DNA from: Kiritimatiellia bacterium
GTDB taxonomy: Bacteria > Verrucomicrobiota > Kiritimatiellia > RFP12 > UBA1067
Assembly (NCBI GenBank): GCA_028686345.1
Contig: JAQUCE010000006.1
Span: 1 to 64,000 of the forward strand
Length of the DNA: 64,000 nucleotides
Reading direction: 5' to 3'
Of the stretch, positions 8,094-10,962 are shown in pieces. A program made the position numbers and the translations under genes. Each line of letters starts with the position of its first letter. Position 1 is the stretch's first letter. A model generated the notes under the pieces. The model ran no database searches, had not been told where the DNA came from, and saw only the letters and a program-made list of their open reading frames with translations.

Positions 8094-8497
8094 GCTAGTC
8101 GCCGCCTGTCTGCGTGCTACGCACAGGCAGGCAACCAAAAGAGTTTGTGCGGTGTGCGGAAGGTCGTCGCTCTCATTCAGAAGTTTGTGATTAAGAGTCC
8201 GCTGCTACAGCAACAAACGCCCCGCGTTTGGGGAAACGAAGAGACGGAAGGCTGCTCCAAAGCGGGTTACTGAGAGGTTGCTGTAAAAGTGATAATGAAG
8301 CAGTGCAAGCATCTTGCTTGCAGAAAACATTTTCATTCAAGCTGGAAGCTTGATTTATGAATCGCCCGATTTGGAGAAGTTGTGGGGGAAGAGGGTGATC
8401 AACGTCTCCTGATTTCCAATCGACACCTGTGTTCGGCTGACTGCTATACTTGTGCAAGTAATCAGGAGAACCCCGAAGGGGTGTATTCACCTTAGCC
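8094..8497. repeat. intergenic hairpin mosaic (module C and others) up to the insertion sequence
   Basis: It begins five bases after the TPR stop codon with CTAGTCGCC and a TGCGT/ACGCA hairpin (about 8111-8123). Module C covers about 8186-8358: GTCCGCTGCTACAGCAACAA, an AAACGC/GCGTTT hairpin, then GCAAGCA (loop TCT) and TCAAGCT-type hairpins. Close relatives lie at 26740, 36855, 57240 and 63675. The last 130 bases are unassigned except for a CCCC/GGGG hairpin at 8471-8481. Confidence 0.65.
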
Positions 8498-8529
8498 CTG
8501 CCCATTACCCTTAATTTAGAACTGAACAA
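8498..8529 (+). repeat. left terminal inverted repeat of the insertion sequence
   Basis: It begins CTGCCCATTACCC and ends CTGAACAA. It pairs with 10886-10917 at 27 of 32 positions. Confidence 0.85.
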
Positions 8530-8662
8530 TATCATGTGTCCTCCAGCAACGCAAATCCCATACACATAAACTGAAACTCAGTATATCCCTGCCAGAGCAC
8601 TTGGTGGCCGGGAGGCGGGTCGTTTTCGCGATCAAGATATCCACCGATCTTTGCCACAAGTT

Positions 8663-9967
8663 TCACTGCGTCACCCAACAATTTTGGGGGCTCACAACCT
8701 TTTTTTTAGCGTACGCACGCAAGGTCCGTAATTCTATGTCGGAGAAAAGTACCTCTGCGGGGAGATCCGGGGTTTCTCTTCCTAGAAGTGACATCAGCAT
8801 TATTCTCCAGGCTATGACCAGGTTAATGGCTATCGCCCGGCGTAGGCGTTCTGCGGTTTTATGGGCAATTTTTTCAATACGGCATCCAGACTTAAGAACA
8901 CGGTGAAAGTCCTCAATGCGCCAGCGCAAACAATACCAGCGCATACAGCGTTCGGCATCTTCGACCGAAGTGATATTGACCGTGGTCAGCAGAAACCACT
9001 CAATGGCCTTGGTATTCTCCGGCGGGTTTTCTTCCTGAGCATGGACAACCCAGATATCTATCGCTTCTTTATCTTTAACATACTCCGGAGGACGGAGCTG
9101 AATGCGTTTATAATGCACTGCCAGAGTTGCCATACGCCCGGGTCTCGCGGAGCGGGCTTGCTGTCTGCTTTTTTTCGGCCGGGCGCTTTGGCGGGGGATC
9201 TTAACGCGGACCAGGCTTTGAAGAGGTTCCGAGCGAAGTGTTTCGAAAAGTTTGAAAGGTGCTTCGTTCAGGTTGCGGTCATGCTTAGCGCGCACTAAAA
9301 GTTCAACGCGCGGGTTCTGGCGCTGCTCATCGAACAACTCGAAGAAGTCAGCTTCCCGGTCACACACATCAATTAACCGCGTATTGGGCATCTGAGCGGA
9401 GAGTTCAACAAGGTCACGGTGATGTTCTATCCATGTGAATGTTTTTTTCTCTTCGATGGGAACCTTGGAGGCCTGCCGGTTATCGCCCGCTGACTTGCCT
9501 TTACGGGCGGTGCAGTCGGCCCGTAATATTCCCAGCGGAAGACCGTTAGGCGCTATGGCGAAAGTAGAGTGTAAATGCAATCCGCGAGTCATTACGCCGG
9601 TCTGATTGGTTACAATCTCTCCGAGACCTTCGCACTGATCAAGGTTGTTGTAGTTCAGATCACTTCCATCCTGCACACACAATACCGTTTTCTGTCCCTG
9701 CATGCGCCGTACAGTACGCAATCGGTGAGGTGCAAGTATGTTAGCCATGTTGACTTCAGAGTCATCCGGCTGATCAATCATTCTGTAATAAGCCTTAACT
9801 GCGGGCCAGTTGCCTGCCGCGACACCGCTGAAGGCGCGGCCAGGATTATCCGCTTTAGCCGCAGCCACACTCACAAGCCTCTTATTCAGTCTTTCATCAC
9901 CCAGGGATGCGCCGCCGAACTCGTTTTCCGCCCAGTTATCTGCGTCTATGCCGTCTGTAGGCCCCAA
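8663..9967 (-). CDS. IS4-family (Tn5/IS50-like) DDE transposase
   Basis: Cuts and joins the element's ends through an RNase H-like active site. Residues 11-68 match the Tn5-type DNA-binding N-terminal domain (WAENEFGGASLGDERLNKRL). The acidic triad is Asp100 (VQDGSDL), Asp203 (VCDREAD) and Glu352. Glu352 lies in the IS4-family YREK signature: Tyr345, Arg348, Glu352, Lys359 in YCLRWRIEDFHRVLK, with the canonical 2-3-6 spacing. The length (434 aa) is close to Tn5 transposase. The start at 9967 is a TTG inside the end of the DUF4338 gene (22-base overlap, different frame), so it is probably made by translational coupling or by a frameshift that joins the two proteins. The gene looks intact. Confidence 0.93.
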   Translation of the reverse strand: MGPTDGIDADNWAENEFGGASLGDERLNKRLVSVAAAKADNPGRAFSGVAAGNWPAVKAYYRMIDQPDDSEVNMANILAPHRLRTVRRMQGQKTVLCVQDGSDLNYNNLDQCEGLGEIVTNQTGVMTRGLHLHSTFAIAPNGLPLGILRADCTARKGKSAGDNRQASKVPIEEKKTFTWIEHHRDLVELSAQMPNTRLIDVCDREADFFELFDEQRQNPRVELLVRAKHDRNLNEAPFKLFETLRSEPLQSLVRVKIPRQSARPKKSRQQARSARPGRMATLAVHYKRIQLRPPEYVKDKEAIDIWVVHAQEENPPENTKAIEWFLLTTVNITSVEDAERCMRWYCLRWRIEDFHRVLKSGCRIEKIAHKTAERLRRAIAINLVIAWRIMLMSLLGRETPDLPAEVLFSDIELRTLRAYAKKKVVSPQNCWVTQ

Positions 9968-10857
9968 TGCGCCCAGCCCGCATCCGAATCCAGTCCCATT
10001 CGTTTTCGAAAATCATTCTCAAGCGGGTATACATAAATCTCCTTAATACTCAGTGACGCTTTTTGAAAACGGTCTTGTCTTCCGCGGCCTTTTGTTTTGC
10101 CTACCGGTATCCAGTTCGCCGCCCGGTAACATGTTCCTGAATAACGGCTGGTATCCACAAAACTTTCGACCAGCCATGGTCGGTAGTTGTACTGACGCTC
10201 AAAATCATCAGGCATAACCTCCATGCTCATACTAAGCACCTTTGAGGCTAGACTCTTGCACTGCACACTTGGTCTTATTGGAAAACGGCTCATCCCCACC
10301 ACCATTTGCAGATACTCCCGACGCTGCTCCCTATCCCAGCCGATCCACTTATCACGGTCTTCCAGCTTGAGAGCCGCTGCCGCAAATCCCAACCCGCCAA
10401 GCCACCCATACTCGGAACCGATCAGATAACGCAGCTGACGACCCATCAGAGGAGCGGCTCCCTGCGGATGTTCGTTAATCATCATCTCATTCCATATCCG
10501 CATCTGGTCGGTAGTACGCACTACCACCAAAGTCAACTCAGAGATATCTCCGACCTGACCGGGTACACCCTTCAGCGGTTCAAGCGGCTTTGATAAACGT
10601 CGCGGTGAACTACGGCCGGTCTTACTGCGCACCACAGCGGGCAAAACGAAATGTCCAGCAGCTTCAAGATCACGAAGTGCTTTAAGACAGCTGCCCTGTT
10701 GTTCACGTCCACGCGTATCATAGAATTCGAAATGTTCGCATATGGCTAAAGCTAATGCAGTACGGCTAAGGAACTGCTTGCCATCAAGCAGCCTTTGAAT
10801 GTATTCTATGTTTTCGGGTTGCGATAATGTTCGCTTAATCTGGTTTTGTTTTTTCAT
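9946..10857 (-). CDS. DUF4338 / Druantia DruA-family protein of the insertion sequence
   Basis: Belongs to the DUF4338 family, whose best-known member is DruA of the Druantia anti-phage system; many members are encoded in transposons. Diagnostic stretches are FSGMKKQNQ... then LRYLIGSEYGWLGGLGF, WIGWDREQRREYLQMV, SRFPIRP, SFVDTSRYSGTCYRAANW and the C-terminal KEIYVYPL. The molecular function is not established. The ATG at 10857 gives 303 residues; an upstream GTG at 10896 would fall inside the terminal repeat. It precedes and overlaps the transposase gene, so the two should be made together. DruB-E homologues are absent, so this is not a Druantia defence locus. Confidence 0.88.
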   Translation of the reverse strand: MKKQNQIKRTLSQPENIEYIQRLLDGKQFLSRTALALAICEHFEFYDTRGREQQGSCLKALRDLEAAGHFVLPAVVRSKTGRSSPRRLSKPLEPLKGVPGQVGDISELTLVVVRTTDQMRIWNEMMINEHPQGAAPLMGRQLRYLIGSEYGWLGGLGFAAAALKLEDRDKWIGWDREQRREYLQMVVGMSRFPIRPSVQCKSLASKVLSMSMEVMPDDFERQYNYRPWLVESFVDTSRYSGTCYRAANWIPVGKTKGRGRQDRFQKASLSIKEIYVYPLENDFRKRMGLDSDAGWAHWGLQTA

Positions 10858-10885
10858 GCCGCTAAAGTACACGGTGTGACTTGTT

Positions 10886-10917
10886 TTGTTCAGCACTTAT
10901 TTAATGGTAATGGGCAG
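10886..10917 (-). repeat. right terminal inverted repeat of the insertion sequence
   Basis: Read on the minus strand it begins CTGCCCATTACCA and ends CTGAACAA, matching the left end. The upstream region of the DUF4338 gene, and hence its promoter, lies within or just inside it. Confidence 0.85.
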
Positions 10918-10962
10918 CCCTAGCCCCCTCCAGCTTCCTAGCCCCTAGCCCCTAACCCCTAC
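10918..10962. repeat. CTAGCCCC-type short tandem repeat
   Basis: A run of imperfect 7-8 base units (CCTAGCCCC, CTAACCCC) between the insertion sequence and the stop codon of the DUF212 gene. It may have been the insertion target. Confidence 0.6.

Follow-up and report, generated by a model that had tools for sequence, protein, structure and literature searches.

The window, a stretch of 64,000 nucleotides, contains an insertion sequence (IS) related to IS50/Tn5, in which a gene of the DruA family (DUF4338) adjoins a gene for a Tn5-like transposase (Table 1). An earlier note on this DNA had described an insertion sequence of this kind with clear ends, and both points were borne out. The Pfam model of DruA (PF14236) recognized the gene with 133 bits at a curated cut-off of 27, and the same terminal inverted repeats (TIRs) bound copies in the same genome and relatives elsewhere, which marks these ends as the true ones. 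The inverted-repeat arms of the element comprised 37 nt with 81% complementarity. The flanks formed an 8-bp target duplication with one mismatch, and in two relatives (L090 and L093) the corresponding duplications matched at all 8/8 positions. Relatives with the same ends were 2.41–2.44 kb long (2411–2436 bp), and most elements of the clade in which DruA and the transposase are fused ended in CTGCCC[AT]TTACCC.

Table 1. Features of the DruA-transposase insertion sequence and its flanks (positions in the window).
Feature	Position	Strand	Basis or remark
Whole insertion sequence, IS50/Tn5-related, DruA-transposase type	8498..10917	-	2420 bp; TIRs, copies in the same genome, relatives with the same ends
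Left target duplication, CCTTAGCC	8490..8497	.	7/8 identical with the right one; centre (C/T)TAG
Right target duplication, CCCTAGCC	10918..10925	.	Pairs with the left duplication
TIR, transposase end, CTGCCCATTACCCTTAATTTAGAACTGAACAA	8498..8529	.	Same TIR in copies of the same genome and in relatives
TIR, DruA end	10886..10917	.	Same TIR in copies of the same genome and in relatives
DruA (PF14236) coding region	9946..10857	-	ATG matching the start in relatives; ORF open from GTG 10896
N-terminal helical (HTH-like) domain of DruA, residues 12-79	10660..10863	-	AlphaFold2, pLDDT mostly >90; putative function
GNAT/Mom-like domain of DruA, residues 117-301	9994..10548	-	Structure matches and alignment with Mom
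1-nt deletion splitting the DruA-transposase fusion	9976..9977	-	GGGC here, GGGCC in sister copy C133
22-nt overlap of the DruA and transposase frames	9946..9967	-	Window copy
Transposase ORF as it stands: DNA-binding domain and DDE domain with YREK, truncated C-terminus	8663..9967	-	TTG start 9967; frame open from 10012
A8 run (T8 on the + strand), putative programmed slippage site	8700..8707	-	A7-A10 at the same codons in 15 elements
C-terminal ~55 transposase residues, -1 frame relative to the ORF, KLLGDAVKLVAKIGGYLDRENDPPPGHQVLWQGYTEFQFMCMGFALLEDT	8532..8699	-	Homology to in-frame relatives

Further sites with the same ends were detected in the genome of the window, two of them two-ended (contigs C123 and C133) and two with single ends (C162 and C139). 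Both two-ended copies, C123:18297-19310 (1014 bp) and C133:17701-19010 (1310 bp), were internally deleted with both ends kept, and such derivatives were possibly mobilised in trans. A similar deletion derivative was also observed in G115:C150. In the sister species of the same genus (G260), at least three insertions of the element were located at contig ends (C16, C77, C78, C239, and C245), and their near-identical sequence suggests that the element was recently active.

The DruA and transposase genes had been described as overlapping by 22 bases in different frames. The overlap does exist in the window copy; however, it is not the normal form of the element. At the junction, copy C133 reads GCGGGCCTGGGC and the window copy GCGGGCTGGGC, and the extra base of C133 joins DruA and the transposase in one frame. 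A scan for the fusion in one genome per species yielded 25 loci, 19 of which had a single open frame across the junction (L102, in which DruA is broken earlier, was excluded). All 19 junction-crossing relatives were fused in frame, at 43–69% identity. Their hosts include Acidobacteriota, Pseudomonadota, Nitrospirota, Bipolaricaulota, Thermodesulfobacteriota, Lentisphaerota, and Planctomycetota, and the majority of the relatives come from metagenome-assembled genomes (MAGs). Two loci from other Verrucomicrobiota (L037 and L038) encode single proteins of 786 and 741 aa, with the Pfam domains in the order DruA, Tnp_DNA_bind, DDE_Tnp_1, and Dimer_Tnp_Tn5. A slippery frameshift site, for which the earlier note had proposed a check, was not recovered, as no slippery heptamer was found in the overlap; the split corresponds to a 1-nt deletion. 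On this comparison, the overlap is an artefact of that deletion (or of an assembly error) near position 9976, and the predicted normal product of the element is one DruA–Tn5-like transposase fusion of ~780 aa. The window copy is unable to make the fusion, and it could make DruA alone and a tail-less transposase from the TTG start. In addition, its DruA carries RFPI/SLAS where the relatives have RFLI/NLAS, with S218 and the other key residues still present. Because no fusion can be made and these substitutions have occurred in DruA, the window copy is probably decaying.

The transposase is of the Tn5/IS4 type (305 bits with the NCBIfam IS4 model, cut-off 160). Its Y-R-E-K signature, YCLRWRIEDFHRVLK, read from the sequence, is intact, as the earlier note had stated, and follows the Y-(2)-R-(3)-E-(6)-K pattern of the IS50 subgroup; however, the ORF is incomplete, with the last ~55 residues in the -1 frame after the A8 run. 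The 8-bp duplication lies within the 8–9 bp of direct repeats in the IS50 subgroup of the IS4 family (PMC2266710), and CTGCCCATTACCCTTAATTT agrees with the end consensus of the subgroup, CW------Y---CA-A--W- (PMC2266710), except for one fixed position (T for A at position 14). The element shares with IS50/Tn5 the Tn5-type DNA-binding and DDE/YREK domains, the dimerisation domain (in relatives), the C/T ends, and an 8-bp duplication. Unlike IS50/Tn5, which is about 1.4–1.55 kb long (1350–1550 bp being typical of the subgroup), it measures 2.4 kb and has an N-terminal HTH-like and DruA fusion and CTAG-centred targets. The IS4 family is also described as having no frameshift in the transposase gene, whereas the present element shows frame offsets at the C-terminal A-run and the deletion at the junction.

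On the phylogenetic tree, the transposases of the fused elements formed one monophyletic clade (support 100/99), and DruA-less Tn5-like elements formed separate lineages. Tn5-like elements lacking DruA are abundant, with 623 plasmid records, none of which had the DruA–Tn5-type fusion. The earlier note had named related elements moving equally well in the absence of the gene as counterevidence; the DruA-less elements found do not belong to the fused clade. Within that clade, no DruA-less copy was found except internally deleted, non-autonomous ones.

A second frame break occurs at the C-terminal A-run, where 7–10 A follow a conserved RAYAKK and the next ~50 residues correspond by homology to the final part of the dimerisation region of Tn5. 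Among the 15 elements with the run, the downstream frame was 0, +1, and -1 in five, six, and four, respectively (A8 and -1 in the window), so that the frame was offset in the window and in nine other elements. Both elements without the A-run were in frame, and no A-run was present at the corresponding site in seven DruA-less relatives. An unconserved +1/-1 direction at poly-A in transposases is regarded as a sign of transcriptional realignment (Antonov et al., PMC3711429), and IS elements have been shown to use 8–10 A for slippage (Baranov et al., PMC1088944). The present element resembles the slippage IS elements of both studies in the poly-A run and the +1/-1 offsets within the transposase gene; however, the slippage in those elements lies at the ORFA-ORFB junction, whereas here the run affects the dimerisation region at the C-terminus of a transposase of the IS50 type. 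The second frame break is probably programmed, and the A-run may be a slippage site that limits the full-length transposase. The polymerase would slip at the run, only a fraction of the transcripts would encode the transposase with its dimerisation tail, and the scarcity of the tail-bearing form would limit transposition.

DruA was detected in 30 of 289 Verrucomicrobiota genomes, and IS families were assigned where its context was readable. It was fused to ISAs1-type transposases at 14 Verrucomicrobiota loci (L042, L044, L046-L053, and L055-L058) and in a complete plasmid genome, to an IS701 transposase at L043, and to Tn5-type transposases in G000, G004, and G203. In addition, DruA adjoined IS66 at L039 and L040. 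Outside this set of genomes, it adjoined IS66 in viral contigs (L106-L108), an ISKra4-like transposase at L101, and an IS4 transposase in Thiodictyon (L128). The element beside L041 had a truncated transposase-like ORF without a family match. The transposon link suspected in the earlier note is thus real and broader than expected, as it extends over five IS families. Since transposases of the ISAs1 and IS701 types carry this domain as a fusion and those of IS66 and ISKra4-like elements have it as a neighbor, DruA is a general transposon module and not a stray Druantia gene. The DruA tree grouped mainly by IS family, which suggests few captures followed by co-descent. No DruA was found in sequenced phages. 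There were six DruA loci in viral contigs, and those examined were linked to IS66 (L106-L108) or grouped with ISAs1 DruA (L109). A transposase link was not described in the papers found to mention DUF4338. The Tn5-type element itself is known; Mom-like DruA domains joined to transposases of several families were not found in the literature searched.

Several DruA-ISAs1 fusion ORFs stopped early, before the catalytic glutamate (L042, L044, L046, L048, L049, L055, L056, L058, and the plasmid locus L129, 2420-4181). The early ends were located near C/T-rich runs, or an A-rich one in L058, and the remainder of most of these ORFs (e.g., RGHWGIENRSHYVRD) was in the +1 or -1 frame. The frame-shifted form was also present in two identical copies on complete Thiodictyon plasmids; since the remainder is off-frame in these as well, the early ends probably reflect programmed frameshifting or slippage. 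The Thiodictyon plasmid pTs485 (L128, 3842-8730) carries a distantly related element of DruA and an IS4-type transposase, in which DruA is a gene of its own; an integrase/IS91 pair interrupts the element, and its duplication is apparently non-CTAG.

The AlphaFold2 model of the window DruA (pLDDT 88) comprised two domains, one helical and HTH-like and the other a GNAT; the model of the full fusion was moderate (pLDDT 71, pTM 0.54), and its domain arrangement was left uninterpreted. A VIA-align comparison with 999 chains placed Mom of phage Mu (PDB 8bv8) first (Z 14.8, 173 residues, rmsd 3.3), with all other GNATs at or below 12.9. The Foldseek matches were likewise GNATs, with Mom at rank 6. 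DruA as a nuclease, one of the options raised earlier, was not supported, the fold being GNAT/Mom-like. When DruA was aligned with Mom as encoded in the Mu genome, H48, R85, R101, S114, F137, D139, G146, Y149, A151, and G158 of Mom were common to both proteins, and H143, R204, S218, D248, and Y257 of the window DruA correspond to Mom H48, R101, S114, D139, and Y149. All ten shared positions were fully or almost fully conserved across 41 DruA domains from five IS families: Mom residues H48, R85, R101, S114, F137, G146, and Y149 were identical in 40–41 of the 41, and D139 was kept in 37, with E in the other four. Of the Mom residues, H48/Y49, R101, D139, and Y149 are described as functional. The solved Mom structure is that of an inactive S124A mutant, whose S124 is probably S114 in the 231-residue numbering, with a start 10 residues longer.

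At the sequence level, the Pfam model of Mom (PF25680) gave 16.1 bits for the window DruA, below the cut-off of 27.1, and a relative from the fused clade (L038) passed with 28.3. A profile-sequence hhalign comparison of DruA and Mom aligned the same motif with a probability of 14%, and an hmmsearch of the DruA profile against the PDB gave no direct sequence match to Mom. Thus, the link between DruA and Mom rests on structure and multiple alignment, which together predict that the window DruA has a GNAT fold with the Mom active-site residues. Mom is a DNA adenine modification enzyme of a phage that is also a transposing element, like the IS here; besides being the best structural match, it shares the H, R, S, D/E, and Y residues. 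In contrast to Mom, with which its identity is about 20%, DruA here has the additional N-terminal HTH-like domain and the fusion to the transposase, and its Mom-type activity is putative. The assignment of DUF4338 to the GNATs has already been published (PMC10853773). The dN/dS values of DruA (0.15–0.24) indicated purifying selection similar to that on the transposase (0.10–0.27).

CTAG occupied positions 3-6 of the 8-bp duplication in 30 of 38 flanks from 20 relatives and five sites in the window genome, against 1/256 per flank expected by chance. In the sister species, five contig-end sites had CTA or TAG, and the duplications of DruA-less relatives were roughly 9 bp long without CTAG. DruA was considered as the source of this targeting and rejected, since neither the ISAs1-DruA copies nor apparently the Thiodictyon DruA plus IS4 element are located at CTAG. 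Of five ISAs1-DruA sites in G048 (L112-L116), four held near-identical copies of ~1.9 kb with ends CAAGGTAACTT, on contigs C2, C6, C8, and C124; these showed no CTAG and no obvious duplication. CTAG targeting is thus no general property of DruA, which is probably not the cause of the preference. As the target, the fusion, and the A-run are all traits of one clade, causality is inseparable from common descent. A transposase with a CTAG-centred target preference could itself have practical interest.

The explanation that we favor for the whole, at about even chances, is that the window holds a degenerating copy of an IS50/Tn5-related element whose normal product joins a Tn5-type DDE transposase to an HTH-like and a Mom-like GNAT domain (DruA), with DruA serving the transposase in cis. 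Since DruA and the transposase form one covalent protein, DruA more likely acts in cis in transposition than as a passenger. With regard to catalysis, substrate, and benefit, we infer that DruA modifies or grips DNA on behalf of the transposase. Tethered to the synaptic complex, DruA would probably perform a Mom-like base modification, which the Mom-like active site suggests, on the element ends, the CTAG-type target, or the excised element. The modification could shield the intermediate against restriction or nucleases of the host, or it could bias the choice of target, comparable to the protection that Mom gives to phage Mu as it transposes. The weak sequence similarity to Mom (16 bits for the window DruA; hhalign 14%) and the functional breadth of the GNAT superfamily speak against a Mom-like reading. 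DruA might instead be a non-catalytic (or CoA-sensing) DNA-binding domain that aids the transposase in finding ends or targets, its Mom-like pocket binding a base or cofactor with no chemistry. The predicted HTH-like domain, the fusion, and the strict CTAG-centred targets of the fused clade, as against the 9-bp non-CTAG duplications of DruA-less relatives, agree with such a role; nevertheless, we consider it rather unlikely, as the residues that all five IS families conserve belong to the active site of Mom and the CTAG preference is absent from ISAs1-DruA elements. It is highly improbable that the element normally has two cooperating genes that are coupled in translation or linked by a ribosomal frameshift within the 22-nt overlap, because C133 and all 19 clade relatives have both parts in one frame, the overlap has no slippery motif, and the transposase start is just a TTG with a weak ribosome site; the overlap of the window copy and the separate, albeit transposon-interrupted, DruA gene of the distant Thiodictyon element would be in its favor. 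The frame differences at the A-run could be ascribed to random decay or assembly errors and not to programmed slippage, given that homopolymers are prone to indels, the data are from MAGs, and the copies in the window genome are partly decayed. This is unlikely, since the A7-A10 run recurs at identical codons in 15 elements from many phyla whose ORFs are otherwise intact and under selection, run-less elements are always in frame, and DruA-less relatives have no run.

DruA could also be a passenger that IS elements carry along and that benefits the host by defending it from phages or rival elements, a role like that in Druantia. Druantia type I contains DUF4338 (PMC7251935), DndF proteins have it as a fused domain (PMC10853773), and a DruA-SspF-like protein is present in the same phylum. 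However, the in-frame fusion to transposases of three IS families argues against a passenger, which we regard as quite improbable. The PADLOC Druantia models gave 15.5 bits for the window DruA and no more than 15 bits, if any, for IS-type DruA, whereas a defence-type DruA in the same phylum (G283) reached 360 bits, and on these scores the window gene is classed as not being a Druantia component. Although it shares PF14236 with the DruA of Druantia type I, it has neither a useful PADLOC score nor DruB-E partners; no DruB-E helicase genes and no defence island were found near the element, whose neighbors, read from ORFs, are Obg, TPR, and other ordinary genes. In DndF, where DUF4338 is likewise called GNAT (PMC10853773), the context is a defence ATPase without a transposase, whereas here DruA is fused to one. 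A transposon origin of the DruA of Druantia is possible. The broader proposal that several transposon families carry an active Mom-type enzyme, tethered to the transposase and marking element or target DNA, and that the anti-phage DruA was recruited from that module, is tentative, and we hold it to be doubtful.

DruA occurs as a fusion with transposases in three IS families and as their neighbor in two others, and it has the active-site residues of Mu Mom; together, these findings lead to DNA base modification as a testable hypothesis for the activity of this anti-phage protein. They also show how transposons can acquire enzymes that mark DNA, and the fusion suggests that transposons took over a tool for marking (or gripping) DNA to serve their own movement. 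A defence-type DruA followed by an SspF-like part was found in a 1220-aa protein (L174, G283:C127, 4078-7737, - strand) from a member of the bacterial family to which the window genome belongs.
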